Of a stretch of 64,000 nucleotides of DNA, positions 16,577 to 58,700 are shown in pieces (within the stretch, counting starts at the first letter, position 1; the number at the start of each line of letters is the position of its first letter). The notes under the pieces were generated by a model. That model ran no database searches, had not been told where the DNA came from, and saw only the letters and a program-made list of their open reading frames with translations. A program made the translations under genes and the position numbers. This stretch comes from Cololabis saira (lineage: Eukaryota > Chordata > Actinopteri > Beloniformes > Belonidae): contig NC_084607.1 in NCBI RefSeq assembly GCF_033807715.1, forward strand, positions 850,001-914,000, written 5' to 3'.

Positions 16577-19500
16577 CTAAGTTAAAGTCTTACCTGAACC
16601 TGTCTCTCTCTAGGACCTGACGGCCGTGGGCGTCACCAAACCCGGACACCGGAAGAAAATCTCCATGGAGATCGGCCAGCTGGAGCTCCCTGATTGGCTG
16701 CCGGAGTTCATCCCCGTAAGTTAGCGCTACGCTAACGCTAACGCCCCCTGACTCCGCCTGGTCGGAATTCTCAAAATAATAGTTCAAATTGTGACTTTTT
16801 TCTCAACATTTCAACTTTACTCAGAAAAATTTGGACTTTTTTCCCGACATTTTGACTTTAATCTCAACATTTTGACTTTTTTCGCAAAATTGTATTTCAA
16901 CTTTATTCTCGAAATTTCACCTTTTTTCTCAACATCTCAACTTTATTCACAAAATTTTAACTTTTTTCTTGACATTTCGCCTTTTTTCTCAAAATTGTAC
17001 TTCAACATTAATTTCGACATTTCAACTTTTCTCAACATTTCAACTTTATTCATGAAATTTTGACTTTTTTCTCAACATTTCCACTTTACTGACCGGTTTA
17101 GACCAGTTTAGACCGGTTTATCTCTGAATCCTGACCGGTTTAGACCGGTTTATCTGTTAATCCTGACCGGTTCAGACCGGTTTAGACCGGTTTAGACCGG
17201 TTTAGACCGGTTTATCTCTGAATCCTGACTGGTTTAGACCGGTTTATCTCTGAATCCTGACCGGTTTAGACCGGTTTAGACCGGTTTAGACCGGTTTATC
17301 TCTGAATCCTGACTGGTTTAGACCGGTTCAGACCGGTTCAGACCGGTTTATCTGTTAATCCTGACCGGTCTAGACCGGTTTAGACCGGTTCAGACCGGTT
17401 TAGACCGGTTTATCTGACCGCTGCGTCTCTCCGGCAGGCCGACCTCAGCGAGTGGCTCGGAGCGATCGGACTCCCCCAGTACCAGCAGCAGCTAACGGAG
17501 AACGGCTACGACTCCATTAGCATCGTCAAGGACCTGAGCTGGGAGGACCTGCAGGAGATCGGCATCACGCGGCTGGGTAAGAACCGGGTCCTGGGGGTCT
17601 GGGTCTGGGTCTGGGTCTGGTTCTGGGGGTCTGGGTCTGGGTCTGGGTCTGGTTCTGGGGGGGGGGACTGGTTCCTGGGAGGACCTGCAGGAGATCGGCA
17701 TCACGCGGCTGGGTAAGAACCGGTTCCTGGGGGTCTGGGTCTGGGTCTGGGTCTGGTTCTGGGGGTCTGGGTCTGGGTCTGGGTCTGGTTCTGGGGGGGG
17801 GGACTGGTTCCTGGGAGGACCTGCAGGAGATCGGCATCACGCGGCTGGGTAAGAACCGGTTCCTGGGGGTCTGGGTCTGGGTCTGGGTCTGGTTCTGGGG
17901 GTCTGGGTCTGGGTCTGGGTCTGGTTCTGGGGGGGGGGACTGGTTCCTGGGAGGACCTGCAGGAGATCGGCATCACGCGGCTGGGTAAGAACCGGTTCCT
18001 GGGGGTCTGGGTCTGGGTCTGGGTCTGGTTCTGGGGGTCTGGGTCTGGGTCTGGGTCTGGTTCTGGGGGGGGGGGCTGGTTCTGGTAAGAACCGGGTCCT
18101 GGGGGTCTGGGTCTGGGTCTGGAGGGGGGTCTGGGTCTGGTTCTGGAGGGGGGGCTGGTTCTGGTAAGAACCGGTTCCTGGGGGTCTGGGTCTGGTTCTG
18201 GGGGGAGGGGGGGGATTCCTGGGAGGACCTGCAGGAGATCGGCATCACGCGGCTGGGTAGGACCAATGTTTGTTGACGATATTTAGTCCGAATTTTGGTT
18301 TACGACGATTTTTAGTCCGAATTTTTGTTGACTATATTTTTAGGCAGCACGGTGGCTTAGTGGTTAGCACTGTTGCCTCACAGCAAGAAGGTCCCCGGTT
18401 CGACTCCCAGGCCCGGCAAGGGGCCTTTCTGTGTGGAGTTTGCATGTTCTCCCCGTGCTTGCGTGGGTTTTCTCCGGGTACTCCGGCTTCCTCCCACAGT
18501 CCAAAAACATGCATATTAGGTTAATTGATGATTCTAAATTGTCCGTAGGTGTGAGCGTGAGTGTGGTTGTGAGCATGGTTTGTGTGTCTATATGTGGCCC
18601 TGTGATGGACTGGTGACCTGTCCAGGGTGTAACCCCTGCCTCTCACCTAAAATGAGCTGGGATAGGCTCCAGCAGACCCCCGTGACCCCGCAAGGGATAA
18701 AGCGGGTAAGATAATGAATGAATGAATGAATGAATATATTTAGTGTGAATTTTCGTTGACGATATTTAGTCTGAATTTTTGTTTATGACAATATTTTGTT
18801 TGAATTTTGGTTGACAACGATATTTAGTCTGAATTTTGGTTAACGATGATATTTAGTCAGAATTTTTCGTTGACGATATTTAGTCATACTTTTCCTTGAT
18901 GACGATATTTAGTCAGAATTTTCGTTGACGATATTTAGTCCAAATTTTCCTTGACGATATTTAGTCTGAATTTTGTCTGTGCTCTCATGGAGACAGACGG
19001 GCGAGGGAACGAGCAGAAAGAAAGACCGGGATTAATTCAAAGAGGAATGAGTGTAAACATGATCGCAGAATTATTAAATTAAAAATCGGAATAAACCAGC
19101 CATTTACTTCGGAATTAAGTTTAATTCGGAATGGCCATTTTCATTTGGAATTAGGTGTTTACATGGTCATTTTTACTCATTTAAGTCGGATTTCATTTTA
19201 ATTCTGAATTAAAGAGGGATTAAACTTCCCTCCTAGCTGGCTCGCCAAGTGCATTCCAGGCGCAGCATTTCAACACTTTTGAGTAAATATCAGTAATATG
19301 CGTTAATTTGGACGTAGCCACACGGCACTTCCTGCCGTTGGGAGGGGGAGTTGTTACTGACGGTTCCCGTTTCTCCGCAGGTCACCAGAAGAAGCTGATG
19401 CTAGCGGTGAAGAAGCTGTGCGACGTCCACCGCGCCGCCGTCCTGCAGGGGGAGTCGGGCACCGGCACGCTGCGGCGTAAAGCCCCCGGGGCCCCCGTAG

Positions 19501-22500
19501 GGGCCGCCGTGGGGCCCCCTGGGGCCCTGCACCTGGTGGCCATCGAGGCCGGCGACGGCGACGGCTCGGCGCCGCACACGCCCAAGATGCTGAGCTTCCA
19601 GGACAGCGAGCTGAGCACCGAGCTGCAGACGGCCATGGCCGGCCCCTACGGGCCCCCCGGGGCCCCCGAGGCCCCCGCAGGGGCCCGGTTCAGCCCCCGC
19701 GGCTGGTCCCAGGACGGCCACACGTTAGCCTCCGTTAGCCCCCGCGGCTGGTCCCAGGACGGCCCAGACACTCGGGAGAGGAACCTCCCGGAGGGCCGGG
19801 ACCCGCGCCCGCTGAAGCAGGTGCCGCTGGGAACCGCCACCGTGTTCAAGTACCCGGCGGTCGCCGCTAAACCCGCGCCGCCGCTGTCCGGCTCGCCGCG
19901 CGGCTTCAGCTACCTCCACGCCCGCTGCGGCTCCGCGGAGCCGGCCGCGCCGCCCAAACGGCGCTGCCAGAGCGCGACGCGCTACGCCCTCTCCGACGGC
20001 GAGCCCGACGAGGACGACGACGACGAGCTGGCCGTGCCGCCGGGCAACGTGCCGTCGTACGCCACGCTGAGCCGCCGGCCCGGCCGCGGCCCCGAGAAGG
20101 GCGGCGGCGCGGTGGGACGCAGCCAGTCCTTCGCGGTGCGCGCCCGGAGGAAGGGGCCGCCGCCGCCCCCGCCCAAGCGGCTAAGCTCGGTTAGCAGCAC
20201 CACCAGCGGCGAGCTGAGCGACGGCAGCACCTCCTCGTCCTCTGGCGCCGGCGTGGTGACCGACAGCCCCGGCAGCGTGAGGTAGGAATGATATTTTACC
20301 GTTCACGATAAACCGTCAAAAAAATTCCCCACGGTAAGAATTTGTATCTCACGGTAAAAATTATAAATTCCCGTTGATGACGTTTTTTTTAAATTCAAGA
20401 TCTTTTTATTGTAATTTTCACAAAGTAAAAAAGGTGAAATGCTGCATGTCAATTACAAATATTTTGAGTAGGCATGGGCATGTTAATCATAGCATACACC
20501 AGTGTACAGAATATAAAAAACAATTAAACAGTATGAAAAAATATAAAATAGTAACAAAAACAAACTACAGACCAAACTAATCCCTCCCCTGTCACTGCCA
20601 GATTACTAATCACAATATGAGGTCATTCTAACATCAAAAGCCTGCACTAGGAATACAAAAGAAATATGAAGTATAGTTCACAGGGTCTGGAATGCTTCTA
20701 GAAAAGGTCCCCACACTTTCTGGAACTTATTTGATTTCTGAAGCGAGTATCTAATTTTCTCCAGTTTTAAGCAGGACATGATGTCTTCCAGCCATTGTGC
20801 ACGAGTAGGAGGGAAGGGATCCTTCCACCTGAACAGAATTGCCCGACGAGCCAAAAGGGAGGCAAAAGACAAAGTGTGCCCCTGTGCAGTGGTTAACTTC
20901 CTTCCTCCCTCCATGACCCCAAACAGGGCAGTCAGTGGGTTTGGTTCTAATCTGATTTTAAGCACCAGAGAGAGAGTATGAAATACTTCCATCCAGTACT
21001 TGTTTAGACATGGGCAGGACCAGTACATGTGGATGAGAGAGGCTTCGGCTACTTTACATCTTACACAGTATGGACTAATATCTGGGTACATGGAGGATAA
21101 CTTTGCTTTGGAAATGTGAGCCCTGTGTACCACTTTGAACTGAATTAAGCAGTGACGTGCGCACAGGGAGGTTGTATTAACCAGTTTGAGTATGGACTCC
21201 CAGGTATCCTCTGATAAGGGAAGCCCTAAGTCCTGCTCCCATGCTGCTTTGAGTTTATCTGTAGGGGCACTCCTAAGATCCAGCAACATGCCATAGAAAG
21301 ACGAAATGAGCCCCTTTTTGAATGGGTCTGTGGCAAGAACTTTGTCAACTGTGGTCAAGCCTATCGATGCACCAGGGCTGGGTGTCTGGGAAAGAACAAA
21401 ATGTCTAGCCTGAAGATACCTAAAGAAATGTGATTTTGGAAGGCTGAATTTACTACTTAACTGCTCAAAAGATGCCACGTGCCGTCTATGAACATATCTC
21501 TAAAACGAATCATACCCCTCCTGTGCCATTCCTGGAAGGTGGGGTCCTCAAGGGATGGTTTGAAAGAGTGATTTGATGCAATGGGGCTAAGAAGAGAGAA
21601 GCTGTGAAAACCAAAAAACTTCCTAAATTGGGCCCAAATTCTAAGAGAATGTTTAACCACTGGGTTTTTGATTGATTTAAGTGAAGGAAGTGGAAGTGAG
21701 GAGCCGAGTAGGGCAGGAATTGACAGGTCATCAGTTGGATGTAACTCCATCGCCACCCAGTCAGGGCGGTCAGCGCCGTCGCAGTAGAAGGACCAGAATG
21801 CAAGGCAGCGCAGGTTAGCAGCCCAATAGTAATAACGAAAGTTTGGGAGGGCCAGACCACCTGCAGACTTTATTTTTTGAAGGTGAGTCTTGTTCAAACG
21901 TGGCCGTTTACCCCGCCATAGGTATGAAGATATAACTGAGTCAAGGGACTGGAAAAAAGAACCAGGAATAAAGAGTGGTAAGGTCTGGAAAAGGTACAAA
22001 AATTTAGGTAAAATGGTCATTTTAACTGAATTGATGCGACCCACAAGAGACATTGACAGGGGTGACCATTGTGTAAGGGTTTGTTTGGTCTCATTTAACA
22101 ATGAGATAAGATTCTCTTGGAGCAGGTCTTTGTGTTTCCTTGTCACAGATATGCCTAAATAGGAGAATTTGTCATTTGCGATTTTAAAGGGAAAATTGGA
22201 AAGGTCTAAAGCATGCGATTCGAGATTGGTAGGGAAAAGCTCACTTTTGCTGAGATTCAGTTTATAGCCTGAGAGTTTCCCAAACTGACTGAGAAGTGAC
22301 AGCGCAGGGGGTAATGAGGCCAGAGGGTGAGAGATGAAAAGCAAGAGGTCATCGGCATAAAGCGAGACCTTATGTTCCCTGCCACCTCTCCAGATACCGG
22401 ACACATCCTCACAAGATCGGAGCGCTGTGGCAAGCGGTTTGATAGCCATGTCAAAAAGCATGGGACTAAGGGGGCACCCCTGACGGGTTCCACGATGCAG

Positions 22501-22779
22501 ATTAAATGGTTTTGACCGTTGAGAGTTAGTACGAATTGAGGCTGTTGGGTGTAAATAGAGAAGTTTAATCCACAGAGCAAAGTTCGGACCAAAACCAAAC
22601 CTGTCCAGCACAGCAAAGAGATAATCCCATTCGACGCGGTCGAATGCTTTCTCCGCATCCAGAGAGACAACGCATTCAGGGATAGCCTCAGAGGCAGAGT
22701 AGATAATATTGAACAGTCGCCTTGTGTTGAAGTAAGACTGCCTACCTTGATGACGTTTTTGTGTAAAACTGATTTATGA

Positions 22780-22867
<88 letters not shown>

Positions 22868-25800
22868 AATGAGCTAGATCAGGAGTCGGCCATCCAAAAT
22901 GTTTTAGATCCATATTGGACCAAAAACACAAAAAACAAATATGTCTGGAGCTGCAAAAAATGAAAAGTCTTGTATCAGAATTAGAATGAAGAAACACATG
23001 CTGCATTTTTCTATATTAGTTAGAACTGGGGGAGATTTTTTTTTTCATTATGCACTTCGAGAAAAAAGTCAAATGTTGAGAAAAAAGTTGAAATGTTGAG
23101 ATTAAAAAAGAAAGGAAAAAGGAAGAAAAAAAGGAAAAAAAACGGAAAAAAGAAAAAAAGAAGGAAAGAGAAAAAAAAGAAAAAAATTCGAAAAAAAAGT
23201 AAAAAAGTAAAAAAAAGGTCAAACATTTTTGAAAAAGCTCCAGGAGCCACTAGGGCGGCGCTAAAGAGCCGCATGCGGCTCTGGAGCCGCGGGTTGCCGA
23301 GCCCTGAGCTAGAAAGAAAGAAGGAAATGAGAAAGAAAGAAAGAAAAATTCCCGTTGATACGTGTTTGTGTAACAAACATGGCGGATCTGAGAGCGAGGA
23401 GTCATTACAGTTTTTTATCAATTCAATGTAATTGGTGTAGTTTAGTATTTAGTTTCTTTTAGAGCAGTGATTTGGCTCCAAAGACTGAATGTGGTGATAG
23501 ATTTATAGTTACAAAGATGGACTTGAATTGGTATTTTTTTATCGTCATTTTTATCGTTATCGGGATAAATGCCAGAAATTATCGTGATAAATGTTTTTGC
23601 CCGTCCCTAGCGTGAGGAGCATCGCGGCGTCCCTGGAGGGCCCGGCCCCCGCGGCCCCCCCGCCGGAGCCCCCCCGGCCCCCTGACCCCCCCGGGGCCCG
23701 GAGGCGGGTCCAGAGCGAGTGCGTCCCCGACCGGGCCGTGGCCGAGCCGGACCGGGGCCCAAAGTCGGACTCGGAGGAGGACGAGTCGCGGGGCGGGGGG
23801 GCCCTGGGGGGGGGCCCTGGAGGGGTCGGCGTCCCCCCAGAACAGCTCCGGCGAGTGCATCCCCTTCGCCGAGGAGGGAAACCTGACCATCAAGCAGAGG
23901 CCCAAGGCCCCGGGGCCCCCCCGGGCCGAGGCCGTGCTGGAGCCCCCCCAGGCCGGGGCCGACCCGGCGTCCCCCGAAACACCGGCCCTGGAGGTGCCCG
24001 AGTTCAACCTGAAGGAGTCGGACACGGTGAAGCGCCGACACAAACACAAGGACAAGGAGGAGGCCGGGGATTCCCTGGCCGGGGATTCCCTGGCCGGGGA
24101 CTCCCCCACTGCGCTAGGAGTAGGCGAGGCTAGCGCAGAGGCTAGCGCCGAGACGCCGGCACCGGTCAAACCTCCTCCGTCCCCGAAGCCGGCCATCGCC
24201 CCAAAACCCATCCGGACCAGCATCCTGGCGGCGCAGGGTGAGAGTTTTCTCTACATTGTATTTCAACATTAATCTCGAAATTTCGACTTTATTCACGAAA
24301 TTTCGACTTTATTCTTAAAATTGTATTTCAACATTAATCTCGAAATTTCGACTTTATTCACGAAATTTCGACTTTATTCTTAAAATTGTATTTCAACATT
24401 AATCTTGAAATTTCGACTTTATTCACGAAATTTCGACTTTATTCTTAAAATTGTATTTCAACATTAATCTTGAAATTTCGACTTTATTCACAAAATTTCG
24501 ACTATTCTTAAAATTGTATTTCAACATTAATCTCGGCTGGTCTTGTAGTCCTCCCTGGTCTAAGTTTGTTCTGTCTCTTCTCTGCAGGACTTCCGTCCCC
24601 CACGGTGACCGTCAGCGCCGTCCAGAGCGTGGCCTTCTCCTCCCCGCCCTCGCCGGCTCCCCCGGGTCGTGGATCCCCAGTTCGGGGGTCGCCGGCCCGG
24701 GGGGGTTCCCCTGCCCGGGGATCCCCAGTTCGAGGGTCCCCGGTTCCATCCCCGACCCCCCAGAGACACCAGGGCCTCGTCCCCGAGGCGTCCACCGGGA
24801 CGGAGATCGTCCACCAGAGATTCGACCAGACCAGCCCCTCCCTGGCGCCGGCCCGGGGGGGTTCCCCGGTCCGGGGGTCGCCGGTTCGGGGGTCGCCGGC
24901 CCGGGGGGGTTCCCCGGCATTGGGGGGTTCCCCGGCCCGGGGTTCCCCGGCTCGGGGGTCCCCAGTTCGGGGGTCGCCGGCCCGGGGGGGTTCCCCGGTT
25001 CCATCCCCGACCCCCCAGGGTCTCGTGGTCCACCAGAGACTGGACCAGACCAGCACGTCCCTGGCGGCGGCCCTGAAGGCCGTGGAGAGGAAGCTGGAGG
25101 ACTCGTCGTCTGACGGGTGAGAAGGTTCCCGGTTCTTCTCACTCCTGTTTAACGTCCAGATTAAAGTTGAAATACAATTTCGAGAAAAGGGAGAGATAAT
25201 AACTAGACAATTTCCTCGCAGAAATTTCGAGAGTGCCACGGCGGGCTGCTGCACATTTGTGTACATTTTGCAAGCAATAAAGGTGAAGGACTCAATACCG
25301 AGTCCAATGACACCACCCATGTCTCTCTATGTCAAACCATTCAAAAGATATTTGACTATAACATATCAACCAATCAGAAGAAGGGGCGGGGCTAATTTTT
25401 ATATATAATATACAAATGTAAATATTTATATGTATAATAATAATATACATATATATCCCATGAAATGGTTCCCAGCAGGACTGGGGATCATGTAAGGTCA
25501 AAAGGTCAGGGTTCAGATTTCTCCATTTTCCAGGTTATATTATATGAAGTCTGTACTGACTGGGTCATGTGACCAGTTCTGGGTCAGTCTAATCAGTCAA
25601 CAGCTGAGCTCTGGTTGCTAGGGGCAACAAGAACCTCGAACCTGAGGTTCCGGGTTCGCTGTGAGAAAACGCCAGCTTTTGCCTTGTGACAAGTTCTCAA
25701 ATAACTCCGATTTTTGAGACAACCATAGCTCCTAGTGGAAAAACAAAGACATCGTGAGAGACACAGAACCCGGCACATTCTGACAATCTTAATTTTATTC

Positions 25801-29969: not shown

Positions 29970-37046
<7,077 letters not shown>

Positions 37047-42604: not shown

Positions 42605-42795
42605 ATGCTAAAAAAAAGGAATATTTGTCTTATTTCTAGTCTTCACCTACAGGTATCTATATACAGCGTGCACATCTTCAGTTTCCTATTTCACCATAGT
42701 TAAAATGTCTCATTTTTAGTCAAAAAATCTCATTACACTTAAAACAAGAGTCATTACCAGAAAAAATAACTTGTTATTTGACAATTTTCACCTGT
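42605..42795. mobile_element. Left half of a family A MITE, cut by the satellite
   Basis: The text ggaatatttgtcttatttct ... ttgacaattttcacctgttt matches the left half of the MITE at 5723. It then switches into gtgcgtttttgcc repeats at about 42797. An insertion of about 80 bp (cttcacctacaggtatctat) lies inside. The MITE marks the left edge of the satellite domain. Confidence 0.7.
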
Positions 42796-42796
42796 T

Positions 42797-43105
42797 TCGT
42801 GCGTTTTTGCCTTTTTCGTGCGTTTTTGCATTTTTTCGCGCGTTTTTTCGTGCGTTTTTTCGTGCGTTTTTGCATTTTTTCGTGCGTTTTTTCGTGCGTT
42901 TTTGCATTTTTTCGTGCGTTTTTTCGTGCGTTTTTGTGTTTTTTTTCGTGTGTTTTTTCGAGTTTTTTTCATGCATTTTTTCGTGCGTTTTTGTGTTTTT
43001 TTTCGTGTGTTTCTTCGTGTTTTTCTCGTGCGTTTTTTCGTGCGTTTTTTCGTGTTTTTTTCGTGCGTTTTATGCATTTTTTCGTGCGTTTTTGCGTTTT
43101 TCCGT
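42797..43105. repeat. T/G-rich satellite block 1 (TTTTTTCGTGCG / TTTTTGCG)
   Basis: Irregular units of about 11-13 bp (ttttttcgtgcg, tttttgcattttttcgtgcg). Frames over it read 'CVFSCVFACVF' and are not proteins. Confidence 0.95.
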
Positions 43106-43113
43106 TCTTCTTA

Positions 43114-46100
43114 CTACTGGTGGGACATGGTGGGACATCTACTGGTGGGACATGGTGGGACATGGTGGGACATGGTGGGGCATGGTGGGACATCTACTGG
43201 TGGGACATGGTGGGACATCTACTGGTGGGACATCTACTGGTGGGACATGGTGGGACATCTACTGGTGGGACATGGTGGGACATCTACTGGTGGGACATGG
43301 TGGGACATGGTGGGACATCTACTGGTGGGACATGGTGGGACATGGTGGGACATGGTGGGGCATGGTGGGACATCTACTGGTGGGACATGGTGGGACATCT
43401 ACTGGTGGGACATCTACTGGTGGGACATGGTGGGACATCTACTGGTGGGACATGGTGGGACATGGTGGGACATGGTGGGACATGGTGGGACATGGTGGGG
43501 CATGGTGGGACATGGTGGGGCATGGTGGGACATCTACTGGTGGGACATGGTGGGACATCTACTGGTGGGACATCTACTGGTGGGACATCTACTGGTGGGA
43601 CATGGTGGGACATCTACTGGTGGGACATCTACTGGTGGGACATGGTGGGACATCTACTGGTGGGACATGGTGGGACATTTACTGGTGGGACATCTACTGG
43701 TGGGACATGGTGGGACATCTACTGGTGGGACATCTACTGGTGGGACATCTACTGGTGGGACATGGTGGGACATCTACTGGTGGGACATGGTGGGACACCT
43801 ACTGGTGGGACATGGTGGGACATCTACTGGTGGGACATGGTGGGACATGGTGGGACATGGTGGGACATCTACTGGTGGGACATGGTGGGACATCTACTGG
43901 TGGGACATGGTGGGACATGGTGGGACATCTACTGGTGGGACATGGTGGGACATCTACTGGTGGGACATCTACTGGTGGGACATGGTGGGACATGGTGGGA
44001 CATCTACTGGTGGGACATCTACTGGTGGGACATGGTGGGACATCTACTGGTGGGACATCTACTGGTGGGACATCTACTGGTGGGACATCTACTGGTGGGA
44101 CATGGTGGGACATCTACTGGTGGGACATGGTGGGACATCTACTGGTGGGACATGGTGGGACATCTACTGGTGGGACATCTACTGGTGGGACATCTACTGG
44201 TGGGACATCTACTGGTGGGACATCTACTGGTGGGACATGGTGGGACATCTACTGGTGGGACATCTACTGGTGGGACATGGTGGGACATCTACTGGTGGGA
44301 CATCTACTGGTGGGACATGGTGGGACATCTACTGGTGGGACATGGTGGGACATCTACTGGTGGGACATGGTGGGACATCTACTGGTGGGACATCTACTGG
44401 TGGGACATGGTGGGACATGGTGGGACATCTACTGGTGGGACATCTACTGGTGGGACATGGTGGGACATCTACTGGTGGGACATGGTGGGACATCTACTGG
44501 TGGGACATGGTGGGACATGGTGGGACATCTACTGGTGGGACATCTACTGGTGGGACATGGTGGGACATCTACTGGTGGGACATGGTGGGACACCTACTGG
44601 TGGGACATGGTGGGACATCTACTGGTGGGACATGGTGGGACATCTACTGGTGGGACATGGTGGGACATCTACTGGTGGGACATGGTGGGACATGGTGGGA
44701 CACCTACTGGTGGGACATGGTGGGACATCTACTGGTGGGACATGGTGGGACATCTACTGGTGGGACATCTACTGGTGGGACATGGTGGGACATCTACTGG
44801 TGGGACATCTACTGGTGGGACATGGTGGGACATCTACTGGTGGGACATCTACTGGTGGGACATGGTGGGACATGGTGGGACATCTACTGGTGGGACATGG
44901 TGGGACATCTACTGGTGGGACATCTACTGGTGGGACATCTACTGGTGGGACATCTACTGGTGGGACATGGTGGGACATCTACTGGTGGGACATGGTGGGA
45001 CATCTACTGGTGGGACATGGTGGGACATCTACTGGTGGGACATCTACTGGTGGGACATCTACTGGTGGGACATCTACTGGTGGGACATCTACTGGTGGGA
45101 CATGGTGGGACATCTACTGGTGGGACATCTACTGGTGGGACATGGTGGGACATCTACTGGTGGGACATCTACTGGTGGGACATGGTGGGACATCTACTGG
45201 TGGGACATGGTGGGACATCTACTGGTGGGACATGGTGGGACATGGTGGGACATGGTGGGACATTTACTGGTGGGACATGGTGGGACATCTACTGGTGGGA
45301 CATCTACTGGTGGGACATGGTGGGACATCTACTGGTGGGACATCTACTGGTGGGACATCTACTGGTGGGACATGGTGGGACATTTACTGGTGGGACATTT
45401 ACTGGTGGGACATCTACTGGTGGGACATCTACTGGTGGGACATGGTGGGACATCTACTGGTGGGACATGGTGGGACATTTACTGGTGGGACATCTACTGG
45501 TGGGACATGGTGGGACATGGTGGGACATCTACTGGTGGGACATGGTGGGACATCTACTGGTGGGACATCTACTGGTGGGACATGGTGGGACATCTACTGG
45601 TGGGACACCTACTGGTGGGACATGGTGGGACATTTACTGGTGGGACATTTACTGGTGGGACATCTACTGGTGGGACATCTACTGGTGGGACATGGTGGGA
45701 CATCTACTGGTGGGACATGGTGGGACATCTACTGGTGGGACATGGTGGGACATCTACTGGTGGGACATCTACTGGTGGGACATGGTGGGACATCTACTGG
45801 TGGGACATGGTGGGACACCTACTGGTGGGACATCTACTGGTGGGACATGGTGGGACATCTACTGGTGGGACATCTACTGGTGGGACATGGTGGGACACCT
45901 ACTGGTGGGACATCTACTGGTGGGACATGGTGGGACATCTACTGGTGGGACATCTACTGGTGGGACATCTACTGGTGGGACATCTACTGGTGGGACACCT
46001 ACTGGTGGGACATCTACTGGTGGGACATGGTGGGACATCTACTGGTGGGACATCTACTGGTGGGACACCTACTGGTGGGACATCTACTGGTGGGACATGG

Positions 46101-46210
46101 TGGGACATCTACTGGTGGGACATCTACTGGTGGGACATGGTGGGACATCTACTGGTGGGACATGGTGGGACATCTACTGGTGGGACATCTACTGGTGGGA
46201 CACCTACTGG
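43114..46210. repeat. Two-word satellite block 1: GGTGGGACAT (10 bp) and GGTGGGACATCTACT (15 bp)
   Basis: About 3.1 kb made only of a 10-bp word and a 15-bp word (10-mer plus CTACT), with rare variants (atttact, acctact, ggggcat). There is no stop in any + frame because neither word contains one in any phase, which explains the frames of more than 1000 codons. Confidence 0.97.
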
Positions 46211-48730
46211 TTTCCGTGCGTTTTTTCCTGCGTTTTTGCGTTTTTTCGTGCGTTTTTTCGTGCGTTTTTGTGTTTTTTCGGGCGTTTTTTCCTGCGTTTT
46301 TTCGTGCGTTTTTGCGTTTTTTCGTGCGTTTTTTCGTGCGTTTTTTCATGCGTTTTTTCCTGCGTTTTTTCGTGCGTTTTTGCGTTTTTTCGTGCGTTTT
46401 TGCGTGCGTTTTTTCGTGCGTTTTTGCGTTTTTTCGTGCGGTTTTGCGTGCGTTTTTGCGTGCGTTTTTGCGTTTTTTCGTGCGTTTTTGCGTGCGTTTT
46501 TGCGTTTTTTCGTGCGTTTTTTTGTGCGTTTTTTCGGGCGTTTTTGCGTGCGTTTTTGCGTGCGTTTTTGCGTGCGTTTTTGCGTCCGTTTTTGCGTCCG
46601 TTTTTGCGTCCGTTTTTGCGTTTTTTTCGTGCGTTTTTGCGTGCGTTTTTGCATTTTTTCGTGCGTTTTTTCGTGCGTTTTTTCGTGCGTTTTTTCGTGC
46701 GTTTTTGCGTTTTTCCGTGCGTTTTTCCGTCCGTTTTTGCGTCCGTTTTTGCGTGCGTTTTTGCGTTTTTTCGTGCGTTTTTGCGTGCGTTTTTGCGTTT
46801 TTTCGTGCGTTTTTGCGTTTTTCCGTGCGTTTTTTCGTGCGTTTTTGCGTCCGTTTTTGCGTTTTTTTCGTGCGTTTTTGCGTGCGTTTTTTCGTGCGTT
46901 TTTTCGTGCGTTTTTGCGTCCGTTTTTGCGTCCGTTTTTGCGTTTTTTTCGTGCGTTTTTGCGTGCGTTTTTGCGTGCGTTTTTTCGTGCGTTTTTGCGT
47001 TTTTTCGTGCGTTTTTGCGTCCGTTTTTGCGTGCGTTTTTGCATTTTTTTCGTGCGTTTTTGCGTGCGTTTTTGCGTGCGTTTTTGCATTTTTTTGTGCG
47101 TTTTTTCATGCGTTTTTTCGTTTTTTCGTGTGTTTTTTCGTACGCATGAAAAAACTCACAAAAAAATGTACGGAAGTACGTTTTTTTGTACGTTTTTTTG
47201 TGCGTTTTTGCGTGCGTTTTTGCGTGCGTTTTTGCGTGCGTTTTTTCGTGCGTTTTTGCGTTTTTTCGTGCGTTTTTGCGTGCGTTTTTGCGTGCGTTTT
47301 TTCGTACGTTTTTTCGTGCGTTTTTGCGTTTTTTTCGTGCGTTTTTGCGTTTTTTCGTGTGTTATTTCGTGCGTTTTTTCGTGCGTTTTTGCATGCGTTT
47401 TTTCGTACGTTTTTTCGTGCGTTTTTGCGTTTTTTCGTGCGTTTTTGCGTTTTTTCGTGTGTTATTTTGTGCGTTTTTTCGTGTTTTTTCTTGCGTTTTT
47501 GCGTTTTTGCGTTTTTTCGTGCGGGAAAAAAACAAGAAAAAACACGGAAAAAACACGAAAAAAACCCTGAAAAAACACGAAAAAAACACGAAAAAAAAAC
47601 ACGAAAAAACGTCCGTTTTTGCGTCCGTTTTTGCGTTTTTTTCGTGCGTTTTTGCGTGCGTTTTTGCATTTTTTCGTGCGTTTTTTCGTGCGTTTTTTCG
47701 TGCGTTTTTTCGTGCGTTTTTGCGTTTTTCCGTCCGTTTTTCCGTCCGTTTTTGCGTCCGTTTTTGCGTTTTTTTCGTGCGTTTTTGCGTGCGTTTTTGC
47801 GTTTTTTCGTGCGTTTTTGCGTGCGTTTTTGCGTTTTTTCGTGCGTTTTTGCGTTTTTCCGTGCGTTTTTTCGTGCGTTTTTGCGTCCGTTTTTGCGTTT
47901 TTTTCGTGCGTTTTTGCGTGCGTTTTTTCGTGCGTTTTTTCGTGCGTTTTTGCGTCCGTTTTTGCGTCCGTTTTTGCGTTTTTTTCGTGCGTTTTTGCGT
48001 GCGTTTTTGCGTGCGTTTTTTCGTGCGTTTTTTCGTGCGTTTTTTCGTGCGTTTTTTCGTGCGTTTTTGCGTCCGTTTTTGCGTGCGTTTTTGCATTTTT
48101 TTCGTGCGTTTTTGCGTGCGTTTTTGCGTGCGTTTTTGCATTTTTTTGTGCGTTTTTTCGTGCGTTTTTGCGTTTTTTCGTGCGTTTTTTCGTACGCATG
48201 AAAAAACTCACAAAAAAATGTACGGAAGTACATTTTTTTGTACGTTTTTTTGTGCGTTTTTTTGTGCGTTTTTGCGTGCGTTTTTGCGTGCGTTTTTGCG
48301 TGCGTTTTTTCGTGCGTTTTTGCGTTTTTTCGTGCGTTGTTGCGTGTGTTTTTGCGTGCGTTTTTTCGTACGTTTTTTCGTGCGTTTTTGCGTTTTTTTC
48401 GTGCGTTTTTGCGTTTTTTCGTGTGTTATTTCGTGCGTTTTTTCGTGCGTTTTTGCATGCGTTTTTTCGTACGTTTTTTCGTGCGTTTTTGCGTTTTTTT
48501 CGTGCGTTTTTGCGTTTTTTCGTGTGTTATTTCGTGCGTTTTTTCGTGTTTTTTCTTGCGTTTTTGCGTTTTTTCGTGCGGGAAAAAAACAAGAAAAAAC
48601 ACGGAAAAAACACGAAAAAAACCCTGAAAAAACACGAAAAAAACACGAAAAAAAAACACGAAAAAACACGAAAAAACCACGAAAAAACACGAAAAAACAC
48701 GAAAAAAACACGAAAAAAACACGAAAAAAC
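46211..48730. repeat. T/G-rich satellite block 2 with two about 1.05-kb higher-order units
   Basis: TTTTTTCGTGCG/TTTTTGCGTGCG/TTTTTGCGTCCG units. The landmark cgtacgcatgaaaaaactca is at about 47140 and 48190, and gcgggaaaaaaacaagaaaa at about 47521 and 48580. At both landmarks the T-rich strand flips to A-rich, forming fold-backs. Not coding. Confidence 0.95.
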
Positions 48731-51700
48731 ACCTACTGGTGGGACACCTACTGGTGGGACATGGTGGGACATCTACTGGTGGGACATGGTGGGACATCTA
48801 CTGGTGGGACATCTACTGGTGGGACATCTACTGGTGGGACATCTACTGGTGGGACATGGTGGGACATGGTGGGACATCTACTGGTGGGACATCTACTGGT
48901 GGGACATGGTGGGACATCTACTGGTGGGACATCTACTGGTGGGACATCTACTGGTGGGACATGGTGGGACACCTACTGGTGGGACATGGTGGGACATTTA
49001 CTGGTGGGACATCTACTGGTGGGACATGGTGGGACATGGTGGGACATCTACTGGTGGGACATGGTGGGACATCTACTGGTGGGACATGGTGGGACATCTA
49101 CTGGTGGGACATGGTGGGACATCTACTGGTGGGACATGGTGGGACATGGTGGGACATCTACTGGTGGGACATGGTGGGATATCTACTGGTGGGACATGGT
49201 GGGACATCTACTAGTGGGACATGGTGGGACATCTACTGGTGGGACATGGTGGGACATGGTGGGACATCTACTGGTGGGACATTTACTGGTGGGACATGGT
49301 GGGACATCTACTGGTGGGACATGGTGGGACATCTACTGGTGGGACATGGTGGGACATGGTGGGACATCTACTGGTGGGACATGGTGGGACATGGTGGGAC
49401 ATCTACTGGTGGGACATCTACTGGTGGGACATGGTGGGACATCTACTGGTGGGACATGGTGGGATATCTACTGGTGGGACATGGTGGGACATCTACTAGT
49501 GGGACATGGTGGGACATCTACTGGTGGGACATGGTGGGACATGGTGGGACATCTACTGGTGGGACATTTACTGGTGGGACATGGTGGGACATCTACTGGT
49601 GGGACATGGTGGGACATCTACTGGTGGGACATGGTGGGACATCTACTGGTGGGACATGGTGGGACATGGTGGGACATCTACTGGTGGGACATGGTGGGAC
49701 ATGGTGGGACATCTACTGGTGGGACATCTACTGGTGGGACATGGTGGGACATCTACTGGTGGGACATGGTGGGACATCTACTGGTGGGACATGGTGGGAC
49801 ATGGTGGGACATCTACTGGTGGGACATGGTGGGACATCTACTGGTGGGACATGGTGGGACATCTACTGGTGGGACATGGTGGGACATTTACTGGTGGGAC
49901 ATGGTGGGACACCTACTGGTGGGACATGGTGGGACATCTACTGGTGGGACATCTACTGGTGGGACATCTACTGGTGGGACATCTACTGGTGGGACATGGT
50001 GGGACATTTACTGGTGGGACATGGTGGGACATCTACTGGTGGGACATGGTGGGACATTTACTGGTGGGACATGGTGGGACACCTACTGGTGGGACATGGT
50101 GGGACATCTACTGGTGGGACATCTACTGGTGGGACATCTACTGGTGGGACATCTACTGGTGGGACATGGTGGGACATCTACTGGTGGGACATCTACTGGT
50201 GGGACATCTACTGGTGGGACATGGTGGGACATCTACTGGTGGGACATGGTGGGACATGGTGGGACATGGTGGGACATCTACTGGTGGGACATGGTGGGAC
50301 ATCTACTGGTGGGACATGGTGGGACATCTACTGGTGGGACATGGTGGGACATGGTGGGACATGGTGGGACATCTACTGGTGGGACATGGTGGGACATCTA
50401 CTGGTGGGACATGGTGGGACATCTACTGGTGGGACATGGTGGGACATCTACTGGTGGGACATGGTGGGACATCTACTGGTGGGACATGGTGGGACATTTA
50501 CTGGTGGGACATCTACTGGTGGGACATGGTGGGACATGGTGGGACATCTACTGGTGGGACATCTACTGGTGGGACATGGTGGGACATCTACTGGTGGGAC
50601 ATCTACTGGTGGGACATCTACTAGTGGGACATGGTGGGACATGGTGGGACATCTACTGGTGGGACATGGTGGGACATTTACTGGTGGGACATCTACTGGT
50701 GGGACATGGTGGGACATCTACTGGTGGGACATGGTGGGACATTTACTGGTGGGACATCTACTGGTGGGACATGGTGGGACATCTACTGGTGGGACATGGT
50801 GGGACATTTACTGGTGGGACATCTACTGGTGGGACATGGTGGGACATCTACTGGTGGGACATCTACTGGTGGGACATGGTGGGACATCTACTGGTGGGAC
50901 ATCTACTGGTGGGACATGGTGGGACATCTACTGGTGGGACATGGTGGGACATCTACTGGTGGGACATCTACTGGTGGGACATGGTGGGACATGGTGGGAC
51001 ATCTACTGGTGGGACATGGTGGGACATCTACTGGTGGGACATGGTGGGACATGGTGGGACATGGTGGGACATGGTGGGACATCTACTGGTGGGACATGGT
51101 GGGACATCTACTGGTGGGACATGGTGGGACATGGTGGGACATCTACTGGTGGGACATGGTGGGACATGGTGGGACATCTACTAGTGGGACATGGTGGGAC
51201 ATCTACTGGTGGGACATGGTGGGACATGGTGGGACATCTACTGGTGGGACATTTACTGGTGGGACATGGTGGGACATCTACTGGTGGGACATGGTGGGAC
51301 ATCTACTGGTGGGACATGGTGGGACATCTACTGGTGGGACATGGTGGGACATCTACTGGTGGGACATGGTGGGACATGGTGGGACATCTACTGGTGGGAC
51401 ATGGTGGGACATGGTGGGACATCTACTGGTGGGACATTTACTGGTGGGACATCTACTGGTGGGACATGGTGGGACACCTACTGGTGGGACATGGTGGGAC
51501 ATCTACTGGTGGGACATGGTGGGACATGGTGGGACATGGTGGGACATCTACTGGTGGGACATGGTGGGACATTTACTGGTGGGACATCTACTGGTGGGAC
51601 ATGGTGGGACACCTACTGGTGGGACATGGTGGGACATCTACTGGTGGGACATGGTGGGACATCTACTGGTGGGACATGGTGGGACATCTACTGGTGGGAC

Positions 51701-52742
51701 ATGGTGGGACATCTACTGGTGGGACATCTACTGGTGGGACATGGTGGGACATCTACTGGTGGGACATGGTGGGACATCTACTGGTGGGACATGGTGGGAC
51801 ATTTACTGGTGGGACATCTACTGGTGGGACATCTACTGGTGGGACATGGTGGGACATTTACTGGTGGGACATCTACTGGTGGGACATCTACTAGTGGGAC
51901 ATGGTGGGACATCTACTGGTGGGACATCTACTGGTGGGACATGGTGGGACATCTACTGGTGGGACATCTACTGGTGGGACATGGTGGGACATCTACTGGT
52001 GGGACATCTACTGGTGGGACATCTACTGGTGGGACATGGTGGGACATCTACTGGTGGGACATGGTGGGACATGGTGGGACATGGTGGGACATGGTGGGAC
52101 ATCTACTGGTGGGACATCTACTGGTGGGACATGGTGGGACATCTACTGGTGGGACATGGTGGGACATGGTGGGACATCTACTGGTGGGACATCTACTGGT
52201 GGGACATCTACTGGTGGGACATGGTGGGACATCTACTGGTGGGACATGGTGGGACATGGTGGGACATCTACTGGTGGGACATGGTGGGACATGGTGGGAC
52301 ATGGTGGGACATCTACTGGTGGGACATGGTGGGACATCTACTGGTGGGACATCTACTGGTGGGACATGGTGGGACATCTACTGGTGGGACATCTACTGGT
52401 GGGACATCTACTGGTGGGACATCTACTGGTGGGACATGGTGGGACATGGTGGGACATGGTGGGACATGGTGGGACATCTACTGGTGGGACATCTACTGGT
52501 GGGACATCTACTGGTGGGACATGGTGGGACATCTACTGGTGGGACATCTACTGGTGGGACATTTACTGGTGGGACATGGTGGGACATCTACTGGTGGGAC
52601 ATCTACTGGTGGGACATGGTGGGACATCTACTGGTGGGACATGGTGGGACATCTACTGGTGGGACATGGTGGGACATCTACTGGTGGGACACGGTGGGAC
52701 ATCTACTGGTGGGACATGGTGGGACACCTACTGGTGGGACAT
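48731..52742. repeat. Two-word satellite block 2: GGTGGGACAT and GGTGGGACATCTACT
   Basis: About 4 kb of the same two words as block 1. A CTAGT variant of the CTACTGGT junction occurs at 49211, 49496, 50611, 51181 and 51891, pointing to a larger period near 285 bp and its multiples. The array ends abruptly at 52742, followed by the hierarchical satellite. Confidence 0.97.
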
Positions 52743-52789
52743 CGTTTATTGTTATCTCTTCAAATTAAGCACTGGTTATATATAATAAA

Positions 52790-55700
52790 ACTGTTTAAAA
52801 CCCGTTTATTTTTATTATTTGCAGCAGAAAACTGTTTAAAACCCGTTTATTTTTATTATTTACAGCAGAAAACTGTTTAAAACCTGTTTATTGTTATTAT
52901 TTACAGCAGAAAAACTGTTTAAAACCCGTTTATTGTTATTATTTACAGCAGAAAACTGTTTAAAACCTGTTTATTGTTATTAAACAGCATAGTTGCATAG
53001 TTTATCATTATATTAAGTTATGAAATCTCATGGGATGTTTAACTATAGTATTATTATATCGTTATATATAATAGTATGGTGATATAATTTGGTTATATGA
53101 CATAATATTGGTAACACTTTACAATAAGGGTCCCTTAATTAACGTTAGTTAATGCATTATTAAGCATTAATTAACAGTTTAATAATAGTTAAATAACCAT
53201 TATTATGTATTACTTAACATTAATTAGCATATTAGTTAATGCATTAATAAACAGTTAGTTAATGCATTATTAAGCATTAATTAACAGTGTAATAATAGTT
53301 AAATAACCATTATTATGTATTACTTAACATTAATTAGCATATTAGTTAATGCATTAATAAACAGTTAGTTAATGCATTATTAAGCATTAATTAACAGTTT
53401 AATAATAGTTAAATAACCATTATCATGTATTACTTAACATTAATTAGCATATTAGTTAATGCATTAATAAACAGTTAGTTAATGCATTAAGCATTAATTA
53501 ACAGTGTAATAATAGTTAAATAACCATTATTATGTATTACTTAACATTAATTAGCATATTAGTTAATGCATTAATAAACAGTTAATTAATGCCTACTGCT
53601 CAGAGTTAATTAATACATTAGTAAGCATTAATAAACGTTACATGATGTAATTATTTATCCTTATGTATGCATTACTTAGTATTAAGTAATACATTAGTTA
53701 ATACATAAGTAAAACGTTAATAATGTCCCTAGTAATCATTCACTAATGGTGTACGTTTACTGGATGGGCATTATTAAACAACTATTTAGAGTCTTAAGTA
53801 ATCATTTCCTAAAAACAGCTAAAAAACTGTTTTAAACCCTGTTTTTTTTTATTATTTACTGCAGAAAATAGCAGAAAACCGGTTTATTTTTATTATTTAC
53901 AGCAGAAAACAGCAGAAAACCTGTTTATTTTTATTATTTACAGCAGAAAACTGTTTTAAACCAGTTTATTTTTATTATTTACAGCAGGAAACGGCAAAAA
54001 AACGGTTTTACACCCGTTTATTGTTATTATTTACTGCAGAAAACAGCAGAAAACCTGTTTATTTTTATTATTTACAGCAGAAAACTGTTTTAAACCAGTT
54101 TATTTTTATTATTTACAGCAGGAAACGGCAAAAAAAACGGTTTTACACCCGTTTATTTTTATTATTTACTGCAGAAAACAGCAGAAAACCTGTTTATTTT
54201 TATTATTTACTGCAGAAAACAGCAGAAAACCTGTTTATTTTTATTATTTACAGCAGAAAACTGTTTTAAACCAGTTTATTTTTATTATTTACAGCAGGAA
54301 ACGGCAAAAAAAAACGGTTTTACACCCGTTTATTGTTATTATTTACTCCAGAAAACAGCAGAAAACCTGTTTATTTTTATTATTTACAGCAGAAAACCTG
54401 TTTAAAACCCGTTTATTGTTATTATTTACAGCAGAAAACCTGTTTATTTTTATTATTTACAGCAGAAAAACTTTTTAAAACCCGTTTATTGTTATTATTT
54501 ACAGCAGAAAACTGTTTAAAACCTGTTTATTGTTATTAAACAGCATAGTTGCATAGTTTATCATTATATTAAGTTATGAAATCTCATGGGATGTTTAACT
54601 ATAGTATTATTATATCGTTATATATAATAGTATGGTGATATAATTTGGTTATATGACATAATATTGGTAACACTTTACAATAAGGGTCCCTTAATTAACG
54701 TTAGTTAATGCATTATTAAGCATTAATTAACAGTGTAATAATAGTTAAATAACCATTATTATGTATTACTTAACATGAATTAGCATATTAGTTAATGCAT
54801 TAATAAACTGTTAGTTAATGCATTATTAAGCATTAATTAACAGTGTAATAATAGTTAAATAACCATTATTATGTATTACTTAACATTAATTAGCATATTA
54901 GTTAATGCATTAATAAACAGTTAATTAATGCATTATTAAGCATTAATTAACAGTGTAATAATAGTTAAATAACCATTATTATGTATTACTTAACATTAAT
55001 TAGCATATTAGTTAATGCATTAATAAACAGTTAGTTAATGCATTATTAAGCATTAATTAACAGTGTAATAATAGTTAAATAACCATTATTATGTATTACT
55101 TAACATTAATTAGCATATTAGTTAATGCATTAATAAACAGTTAATTAATGCCTACTGCTCAGAGTTAATTAATACATTAGTAAGCATTAATAAACGTTAC
55201 ATGATGTAATTATTTATCCTTATGTATGCATTACTTAGTATTAAGTAATACATTAGTTAATACATAAGTAAAACGTTAATAATGTCCCTAGTAATCATTC
55301 ACTAATGGTGTTTATTTGGAGTGAATATGCATTAAGTAACAGCTACCTAATACATCTACTAATCATTCACTAATGGTGTACGTTTACTGGATGGGCATTA
55401 TTAAACAACTATTTAGAGTCTTAAGTAATCATTTCCTAAAAACAGCAAAAAACTGTTTTAAACCCTGTTTATTTTTATTATTTACTGCAGAAAACAGCAG
55501 AAAACCTGTTTATTTTTATTATTTACAGCAGAAAACCTGTTTAAAACTCGTTTATTTTTATTATTTACAGCAGAAAACCTGTTTAAAACCTGTTTATTGT
55601 TATTATTTACAGCAGAAAACCTGATTAAAACCCGTTTATTTTTATTATTTACAGCAGAAAACCTGTTTAAAACTCGTTTATTTTTATTATTTACAGCAGA

Positions 55701-58700
55701 AAACCTGTTTAAAACTCGTTTATTGTTATTATTTACAGCAGAAAACCTGATTAAAACCCGTTTATTTTTATTATTTACAGCAGAAAACCTGTTTAAAACT
55801 CGTTTATTTTTATTATTTACAGCAGAAAACCTGTTTAAAACCTGTTTATTGTTATTATTTACAGCAGAAAACCTGATTAAAACCCGTTTATTTTTATTAT
55901 TTACAGCAGAAAACCTGTTTAAAACTCGTTTATTTTTATTATTTACAGCAGAAAACCTGTTTAAAACTCGTTTATTGTTATTATTTACAGCAGAAAACCT
56001 GATTAAAACCCGTTTATTTTTATTATTTACAGCAGAAAAACTGTTTAAAACCCGTTTATTGTTATTATTTACAGCAGAAAACTGTTTAAAACCTGTTTAT
56101 TTTTATTATTTACAGCAGAAAACTGTTTAAAACCCGTTTATTTTTATTATTTACAGCAGAAAACTGTTTAAAACCTGTTTATTGTTATTATTTACAGCAG
56201 AAAAACTGTTTAAAACCCGTTTATTGTTATTATTTACAGCAGAAAACTGTTTAAAACCTGTTTATTGTTATTAAACAGCATAGTTGCATAGTTTATCATT
56301 ATATTAAGTTATGAAATCTCATGGGATGTTTAACTATAGTATTATTATATCGTTATATATAATAGTATGGTGATATAATTTGGTTATATGACATAATATT
56401 GGTAACACTTTACAATAAGGGTCCCTTAATTAACGTTAGTTAATGCATTATTAAGCATTAATTAACAGTGTAATAATAGTTAAATAACCATTATTATGTA
56501 TTACTTAACATTAATTAGCATATTAGTTAATGCATTAATAAACAGTTAATTAATGCATTATTAAGCATTAATTAACAGTTTAATAATAGTTAAATAACCA
56601 TTATTATGTATTACTTAACATTAATTAGCATATTAGTTAATGCATTAATAAACAGTTAGTTAATGCATTATTAAGCATTAATTAACAGTTTAATAATAGT
56701 TAAATAACCATTATTATGTATTACTTAACATTAATTAGCATATTAGTTAATGCATTAATAAACAGTTAATTAATGCCTACTGCTCAGAGTTAATTAATAC
56801 ATTAGTAAGTATTAATAAACGTTACATGATGTAATTATTTATCCTTATGTATGCATTACTTAGTATTAAGTAATACATTAGTTAATACATAAGTAAAACG
56901 TTAATAATGTCCCTAGTAATCATTCACTAATGGTGTACATGTTTCCTGGATGGGCATTATTAAACAACTATTTAGAGTCTTAAGTAATCATTTCCTAAAA
57001 ACAGCAAAAAACTGTTTTAAACCCTGTTTATTTTTATTATTTACTGCAGAAAACAGCAGAAAACCTATTTATTTTTATTATTTACTGCAGAAAACAGCAG
57101 AAAACCTGTTTATTTGTATTATTTACAGCAGAAAACCTGTTTATTTTTATTATTTACTGCAGAAAACTGTTTATTTTTATTATTTACAGCAGAAAACTGT
57201 TTTAAACCAGTTTATTTGTATTATTTACAGCAGGAAACGGCAAAAAAAAACGGTTTTACACCCGTTTATTTTTATTATTTACTGCAGAAAACAGCAGATA
57301 ACCTGTTTATTTTTATTATTTACTGCAGAAAACAGCAGAAAACCTGTTTATTTTTATTATTTACTGCAGAAAACTGTTTTAAACCAGTTTATTTTTATTA
57401 TTTACAGCAGAAAACCTGTTTATTTTTATTATTTACAGCAGGAAACGGCAAAAAAACGGTTTTACACCCGTTTATTGTTATTATTTACTGCAGAAAACAG
57501 CAGAAAACCTGTTTATTTTTATTATTTACAGCAGAAAACCTGTTTAAAACCCGTTCATTTTTATTGTTTACAGCAGAAAACTGTTTAAAACCTGTTTATT
57601 GTTATTATTTACAGCAGAAAACCTGATTCAAACCGTTTATTTTTATTATTTACAGCAGAAAACTGTTTAAAACCTGTTTATTGTTATTATTTACAGCAGA
57701 AAACTGTTTAAAACCTGTTTATTGTTATTAAACAGCATAGTTGCATAGTTTATCATTATATTAAGTTATGAAATCTCATGGGATGATTAACTATAGTACT
57801 ATTATATCGTTATATATAATAGTATGGTGATATAATTTGGTTATATGACATAATATTGGTAACACTTTACAATAAGGGTCCCTTAATTAACGTTAGTTAA
57901 TGCATTATTAAGCATTAATTAACAGTGTAATAATAGTTAAATAACCATTATTATGTATTACTTAACATTAATTAGCATATTAGTTAATGCATTAATAAAC
58001 AGTTAGTTAATGCATTATTAAGCATTAATTAACAGTGTAATAATAGTTAAATAACCATTATTATGTATTACTTAACATTAATTAGCATATTAGTTAATGC
58101 ATTAATAAACAGTTAATTAATGCCTACTGCTCAGAGTTAATTAATACATTAGTAAGCATGAATAAACGTTACATGATGTAATTATTTATCCTTATGTATG
58201 CATTACTTAGTATTAAGTAATACATTAGTTAATACATAAGTAAAACGTTAATAATGTCCCTAGTAATCATTTACTAATGGTGTTTATTTGGAGTGAATAT
58301 GCATTAAGTAACAGCTACCTAATACATCTAGTAATCATTCACTAATGGTGTACACGTTTACTGGATGGGCATTATTAAACAACTATTTAGAGTCTTAAGT
58401 AATCATTTCCTAAAAACAGCAAAAAACTGTTTTAAACCCTGTTTATTGTTATTATTTACTGCAGAAAACAGCAGAAAACCTGTTTATTTTTATTATTTAC
58501 TGCAGAAAACAGCAGAAAACCTGTTTATTTGTATTATTTACAGCAGAAAACCTGTTTATTTTTATTATTTACTGCAGAAAACAGCAGAAAACCTGTTTAT
58601 TTTTATTATTTACAGCAGAAAACTGTTTTAAACCAGTTTATTTTTATTATTTACTGCAGAAAACAGCAGAAAACCTGTTTATTTTTATTATTTACTACAG

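Follow-up and report, generated by a model that had tools for sequence, protein, structure and literature searches.

How a coding exon comes to be interrupted by a block of transposon-derived DNA, and whether such a block can act as an intron, is the question raised by the caskin2 gene of the beloniform fish Cololabis saira. Much of the gene lies in a 64,000-nucleotide stretch of contig NC_084607.1 (C21:850001-914000 of the 1.146 Gb genome; this whole stretch is hereafter the window), where a 3.3-kb insertion divides the large caskin2 exon and the sequence GCGTGAGG is present twice, exactly, on either side of it. The outermost component of the insertion is a hAT-type transposon whose ends combine with the duplicated target letters to give a predicted splice donor and acceptor, and intron gain by this insertion is the best reading of the locus and, judged from the DNA, probably the correct one.

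An insertion with predicted splice sites at its borders

The inserted block has TA...TA termini, beginning with TAGGAATG (over a longer span, TAGGAATGATATTTTACCG) and finishing with the letters GTCCCTA within GTTTTTGCCCGTCCCTA, directly against the two copies of GCGTGAGG (Table 1). The duplication is not a chance repeat, because 22 of the 39 other copies fetched from the same element family carry exact 8-bp flanking repeats and five more carry them with one mismatch; an earlier note on this DNA, which had described a hAT-type element bounded by perfect 8-bp duplications in the large exon, was right on this point. Transposon insertion into a once-continuous caskin2 exon is close to certain. An assembly artefact was considered and is unlikely, the block being built of layered elements each with its own target repeats and the family being spread across the genome.

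Both predicted splice dinucleotides straddle a border between duplication and element, as had been claimed. Borders of the form GT...AG arise because the element has T...A termini and the duplication has the form G-N6-G, and the gain to the mRNA is always in frame because each side keeps seven of the eight duplication letters, a net gain of 8 - 2 = 6 nucleotides. If unspliced, the caskin2 frame reads ...DSPGSVR and then TAG (20283-20285), the immediate stop that the earlier note had pointed out. Excision of 20282-23610 nets +6 nucleotides and leaves the frame open at the join, which reads GSV-SV-RSI with two added codons, and the open frame through the rejoined site is 266 amino acids long. 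The claim that splicing preserves the frame and adds two codons thus stands at the junction; farther downstream the assembled frame breaks in two runs of G (23795-23814) that had been overlooked. Precise splicing at the insertion borders, joining 20281 to 23611, is likely on these letters.

The predicted donor 9-mer, GAG/GTAGGA, is identical to the donor that caskin2 itself uses after 6290. The contexts of both predicted sites are plausible for a spliceosomal (U2) intron. On simple weight matrices, applied to six of the eight listed native donors and to nine native acceptors, the predicted donor scores 3.41 (native donors, 3.41 to 8.38) and the predicted acceptor 2.74, within the native range of -0.61 to 9.41.

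The events leading to this state can be proposed as follows. A nonautonomous hAT element would have inserted into the GSVRSIAA stretch of the large exon, duplicating GCGTGAGG, in the lineage leading to this beloniform fish. The T...A of the element and the G...G of the duplication would then have supplied GT...AG borders in which each dinucleotide takes one letter from the duplication and one from the element, and the spliceosome would most likely excise the interval between them, so that seven letters of each 8-letter copy stay behind. A truncated long interspersed nuclear element (LINE) and a second miniature inverted-repeat transposable element (MITE) would have entered the new intron later, a timing of splicing relative to the nested insertions that we infer.

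Table 1. Features of the interrupted caskin2 exon, in window coordinates.
Feature	Position	Strand	Details
caskin2 large exon, part 5' of the insertion, up to ...TDSPGSV	19381..20281	+	acceptor AG at 19379-19380
Left target-site duplication GCGTGAGG	20275..20282	+	its final G supplies the first letter of the predicted donor
Predicted splice donor GT	20282..20283	+	context GAG/GTAGGA; last G of the duplication and first T of the element
Inserted block: outer hAT-type MITE and nested elements	20283..23609	+	predicted intron is 20282-23610
Left arm of outer MITE (TAGGAATGATATTTTACC...), up to the LINE	20283..20387	+	lacks four letters after TAGGAATG that nearly all other fetched copies carry
5'-truncated LINE with reverse transcriptase, inside the MITE	20388..22746	-	RVT_1, E = 3.5e-26
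GAAA array	22778..22869	+	arrays of GAAA or GGAA type occupy this part of the element in other family copies
Second hAT-like MITE (CAGGAGTCGGCC...GAGCCCTG)	22880..23306	+	target repeat AGCTAGAT/AGCTAGAA, 8 letters, 1 mismatch
Right arm of outer MITE	23345..23609	+	ends in predicted polypyrimidine tract GTTTTTGCCCGTCCCTA
Predicted splice acceptor AG	23609..23610	+	last A of the element and first G of the right duplication; context TTTTTGCCCGTCCCTAG/C
Right target-site duplication GCGTGAGG	23610..23617	+	
caskin2 large exon, part 3' of the insertion, RSIAASLEG... to ...RTSILAAQ	23611..24237	+	
Runs of 7 G and 9 G where the conserved caskin2 frame shifts	23795..23814	+	23795-23801 and 23806-23814

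The block consists of three layers, the outer hAT-type MITE, the truncated LINE and the second, hAT-like MITE, and the two nested elements had escaped the earlier note. The LINE is flanked by a 14-letter target repeat, TTGATGACGTTTTT, at 20374-20387 and 22747-22760, and its unoccupied target site is visible in family copies such as L002, L005 and L020. The outer element is older than the LINE and the second MITE, because both sit within it with target repeats of their own and the LINE site is empty in family copies.

The exon before the insertion

A search for fish caskin-2 proteins returned 1,502 hits, and the figures given here cover the best 120 of them. The extended reading SVSVRSI occurs in none of the 120, while 119 read SP[GV]S[VI][RKS]S[IL] without insertion and the remaining one (P0027) is a gene model that does not include the stretch. 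In an alignment of 55 of these proteins, all 55 have a two-column gap opposite the extra SV of the window gene. The uninterrupted proteins include that of a needlefish, Xenentodon cancila (P0004), which is itself a member of the Beloniformes. A further search with the short region alone recovered 17 proteins, all of them among those listed from the main search. These comparisons were made on proteins, and the intron positions of the orthologues were not read directly. In the same genome, two paralogous exons read GSVRSIAA unbroken (C19:19.0 Mb, ...SAGSVRSIAARLEG; C21:32.5 Mb, ...SMGSVRSIAAMLE), with the site lying in single open genomic frames of 725 and 408 amino acids. The comparison with related fish for an unbroken GSVRSI, which the earlier note had put forward as a check, therefore came out in favor of its claim. 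The insertion is derived, since orthologues, including that of Xenentodon cancila, and two paralogues are uninterrupted. A tree built from the window gene and the 55 proteins places the gene in a 14-member clade of atherinomorph fishes (support 0.999), next to Oryzias (0.943); Xenentodon is within the atherinomorph clade and is not the sister of the window gene. It is mitochondrial cytochrome b that points to the Beloniformes for this genome, its best match (95%) being a Belonoidei cluster named from the beloniform Belone, followed by halfbeaks.

Constraint on the interrupted gene

caskin2 lies within the first 28 kb of the window together with 18 kb upstream of it, from a start codon at L032:2998 to window position 27865, and its ankyrin, SH3, SAM, large-exon and C-terminal parts were all found in this interval. 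The parts were located with a human query sequence, and the exon model upstream of the large exon is approximate. For searches and alignment the protein was translated across the break in the G-runs.

Constraint was gauged on the columns that are invariant in the other 55 aligned proteins, with a leave-one-out control on those 55. Upstream of the large exon the window gene retains 246 of 258 such columns; in the large exon it retains 93 of 98 ahead of the insert and 53 of 54 past it, and none of the 13 in the last exons is changed. In the control for the part after the insert, 41 of the 55 proteins differ nowhere, 12 at one column and two at three; the single difference of the window gene is thus ordinary, since 12 of the 55 others also differ at one. 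The pattern, as read from the alignment, is not that of a long-dead C-terminus.

Points against intron gain and alternative explanations

Several observations weigh against a working new intron. The conserved frame is broken once downstream of the predicted splice: the first ~60 codons past the insert (RSIAASLEG...) and the remainder fit different frames, with the switch falling within the G-runs ~0.2 kb downstream of the insert. Either a sequencing error or a true frameshift could account for this; in the latter case the C-terminus would be lost with or without splicing of the element. Additionally, the window gene sits on a long branch (0.34) in the protein tree and differs at 12 invariant columns before the large exon, where the other 55 proteins mostly show 0 to 3 differences and one alone is higher (23), so that either the gene or its approximate upstream exon model is unusually diverged there. 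Finally, the score of the predicted donor ties with that of the lowest native donor and ranks 7th among 188 GT sites in the stretch, the predicted acceptor ranks 10th among 302 AG sites, and the sites that score higher, most of which lie in the LINE, could compete with those at the borders.

One alternative is that the insertion marks a disruptive or segregating allele, or a gene being lost, in which the element is removed inefficiently, translation stops at the TAG that follows GSVR and the frameshift in the G-runs adds a second lesion. The in-frame TAG met at once when the element is retained, the frame break and the departures from invariant columns, more numerous than in most of the 55 compared proteins, would all suit it, and the genome search found one assembled copy of the caskin2 locus, from which the allele state cannot be read. 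However, the insertion is probably not brand new, as two elements are nested in it and the divergence of the outer copy is similar to that of other copies of its family. Further, the coding part past the G-runs stays open in its other, conserved frame, with the post-insert columns retained as described above, and a lone break in a run of nine G also resembles a homopolymer error. On balance, we consider loss or disruption of the gene unlikely.

It is more doubtful still, indeed improbable, that the element is spliced mainly through sites away from its borders, for example in the LINE, with truncated or altered isoforms as the product. Six GT and nine AG sites in the stretch do outscore the border sites on the simple matrix, the best donor being AAG/GTGAGT at 21882; but the border pair is the one whose use restores the conserved GSV...RSI, and matrix scores by themselves predict splicing poorly. 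An ordinary old intron later entered by a hAT element, for which the mere presence of an intron-like stretch is the sole support, is ruled out for practical purposes by the perfect duplication at the exact intron borders, the lack of the extra residues in every one of the 120 listed orthologous proteins and in both paralogues, and the reading of both paralogues through the site in one open genomic frame.

A family of elements with GT...AG borders

The arms of the outer element match a large family in the genome, with 3,828 candidates at first look, 40 of which were scored; genome-wide there are 1,671 exact left ends with a G before them and 2,152 exact right ends with a G after them. The family counts exclude the caskin2 copy itself (L001). 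Duplications of 8 bp were called in 27 of the 39 other fetched copies, and the remaining 12, in which none was called, do not enter the counts by position. The target duplications of hAT elements follow the consensus nTnnnnAn, and those of the family agree with it overall (T at position 2 in 22 of 27, A at position 7 in 18 of 27); the caskin2 duplication deviates from the consensus at both T2 and A7. The typical ends, TAGGAATGGGYGATAT and, reversed, TAGGGATGGGCGGTAT, form short terminal inverted repeats. By these repeats and the 8-bp duplications, the outer element is classed, from its letters, as a putative nonautonomous hAT element, or MITE. In an alignment of 28 copies, from which L013 was dropped and in which one indel stretch is misaligned, the caskin2 outer copy departs from the consensus of the copies in 21 of 261 columns, a figure that includes misaligned ones, against a median of 5.75% for the other copies.

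On chromosome C1, which makes up 5% of the genome, there are 23 same-strand pairs in which a left end preceded by G and a right end followed by G lie 200 to 3,500 bp apart and so make GT...AG borders, and 22 of the 23 carry 8-bp duplications that match exactly or with one mismatch. No evident coding exon lies at the rejoined site in any of these 23 pairs, which were found by exact end patterns that miss diverged copies. The longest open stretch through the rejoined sites is 43 to 162 amino acids of ~264 possible, compared with 266 in caskin2. The longest of these (L090, C1:54609543-54611430, 162 amino acids) was examined as an exonic case and set aside, as the copy seems to lie just past the end of a WIPF-like exon, in the likely intron. 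Within the family GT...AG borders are nothing unusual; the rarity lies in the exonic position. The 23 copies on C1 scale to some 450 copies forming such borders genome-wide.

A simple rule follows, and with it a genome-wide prediction: any hAT element that has T...A ends and lands with a G-N6-G duplication immediately yields an in-frame insert bordered by GT...AG. At caskin2, the source element, the target duplication, the state before insertion and the borders that resulted can all be seen, which makes the mechanism directly testable.

Deletions at the ends of the caskin2 copy

The caskin2 copy carries short deletions at both ends, both uncommon in the family. The short left end is absent from the 22 other left ends seen, with L017 shortened in a different way, and has two exact matches in the genome, the caskin2 copy and L066 on C1; no right end of the L066 copy was found within the 1.5 kb of sequence examined. 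At the right end 9-10 nucleotides are missing, a deletion shared by none of the 28 aligned copies, although L022 is also 9 nucleotides shorter there in another way. Genome-wide, the short-right-end pattern has 18 matches, which were sorted by eye from their upstream letters, and two belong to this family, caskin2 and L061 on C18. The L061 copy (C18:32400796) has a similar short right end, TTTTTTTTGCCCATCCCTA, and the duplication GCTGGGAC.

An AG, mostly as TTTTTTAG, precedes the element end by about 20 nucleotides in 28 of the 39 fetched copies and is absent from the caskin2 copy. On the simple matrix this internal AG scores like the terminal acceptor (0.34 and 0.17), and its use would lead to a TGA by reading of the letters. 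That the deletion removed a decoy acceptor is an idea now weakened, as the right-end deletion is not private to caskin2 and other copies have no such AG anyway. The caskin2 copy may never have carried it, because several copies without the AG (L014, L015, L024 and L025) have no deletion. Selection for better splice sites by way of the end deletions is offered as a suggestion. A broader scenario seems doubtful: that this abundant hAT MITE family comes pre-adapted for intron formation, that a few copies besides the one in caskin2 could be working introns, so that an introner-like system in a vertebrate has been caught early, and that the end deletions in caskin2, with no AG left in the acceptor tract, are a step of splice-site refinement.

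Relation to known cases of intron gain

Splicing of hAT insertions has a parallel in maize, where Ds insertions in genes were reportedly spliced as introns (Giroux 1994). Ds resembles the caskin2 case in being a hAT element with an 8-bp duplication in a coding exon. Ds splicing is imprecise and frequently relies on sites within the element. The two cases thus differ in that the Ds sites are often internal and removal was shown by RNA, whereas the caskin2 dinucleotides straddle the borders and their use is predicted from DNA.

Intron gain is described as rarely caught in vertebrates in two papers (PMC3257199, PMC12357937). According to the second, intron 3 of notothenioid slc26a2 was made by the element NTE-1. 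The slc26a2 case also concerns a fish coding exon and a transposon-like element with flanking direct repeats, with the gt-ag of the new intron lying in direct and inverted repeats and with a later element lengthening the intron. It differs in that NTE-1 begins with tgt, ends with aca and has 4-nucleotide direct repeats, whereas the caskin2 element is of the hAT type with TA...TA ends, 8-nucleotide repeats and a gain that is always in frame. Introners are, in PMC9860276, nonautonomous DNA transposons with duplications and inverted repeats that make introns; there they populate many genes of one genome, whereas caskin2 is one case seen. In fish melanocortin receptors, repeats that include hAT pieces are placed inside novel introns by PMC3151243.

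No hAT-made vertebrate intron with borders in the target duplication came up in a literature search that covered few subscription papers. The mechanism is known in kind, and caskin2 is a clear vertebrate hAT case of probable intron gain. The earlier note had called the mechanism rarely visible in vertebrates. The insertion with border-straddling sites is real, but the rarity was overstated: 23 copies on C1 alone have GT...AG borders, and there is a close precedent in fish (PMC12357937).

Other repeats in caskin2 and the window

The caskin2 exon following the large one is expanded into repeats (24588-25117), and at 17441-18282 a minisatellite appears to have multiplied the end of the SAM2 exon together with the donor region; the peptide of the exon end is read at 17441-17593 and recurs near 17676, 17812, 17948 and 18217.

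Beyond the gene, a 367-amino-acid open frame of repeats lies at 34041-35144. Very long, strongly GC-skewed arrays at 42700-52880 hold open frames of >1,000 amino acids by repetition (GGTSTGGTWWDIY..., FVRFCVRFCV...), and AT-rich repeats at 52800-64000 (~24% GC from 54 kb on) give frames such as FLLFTAENCLKPVYFYYLQQ.

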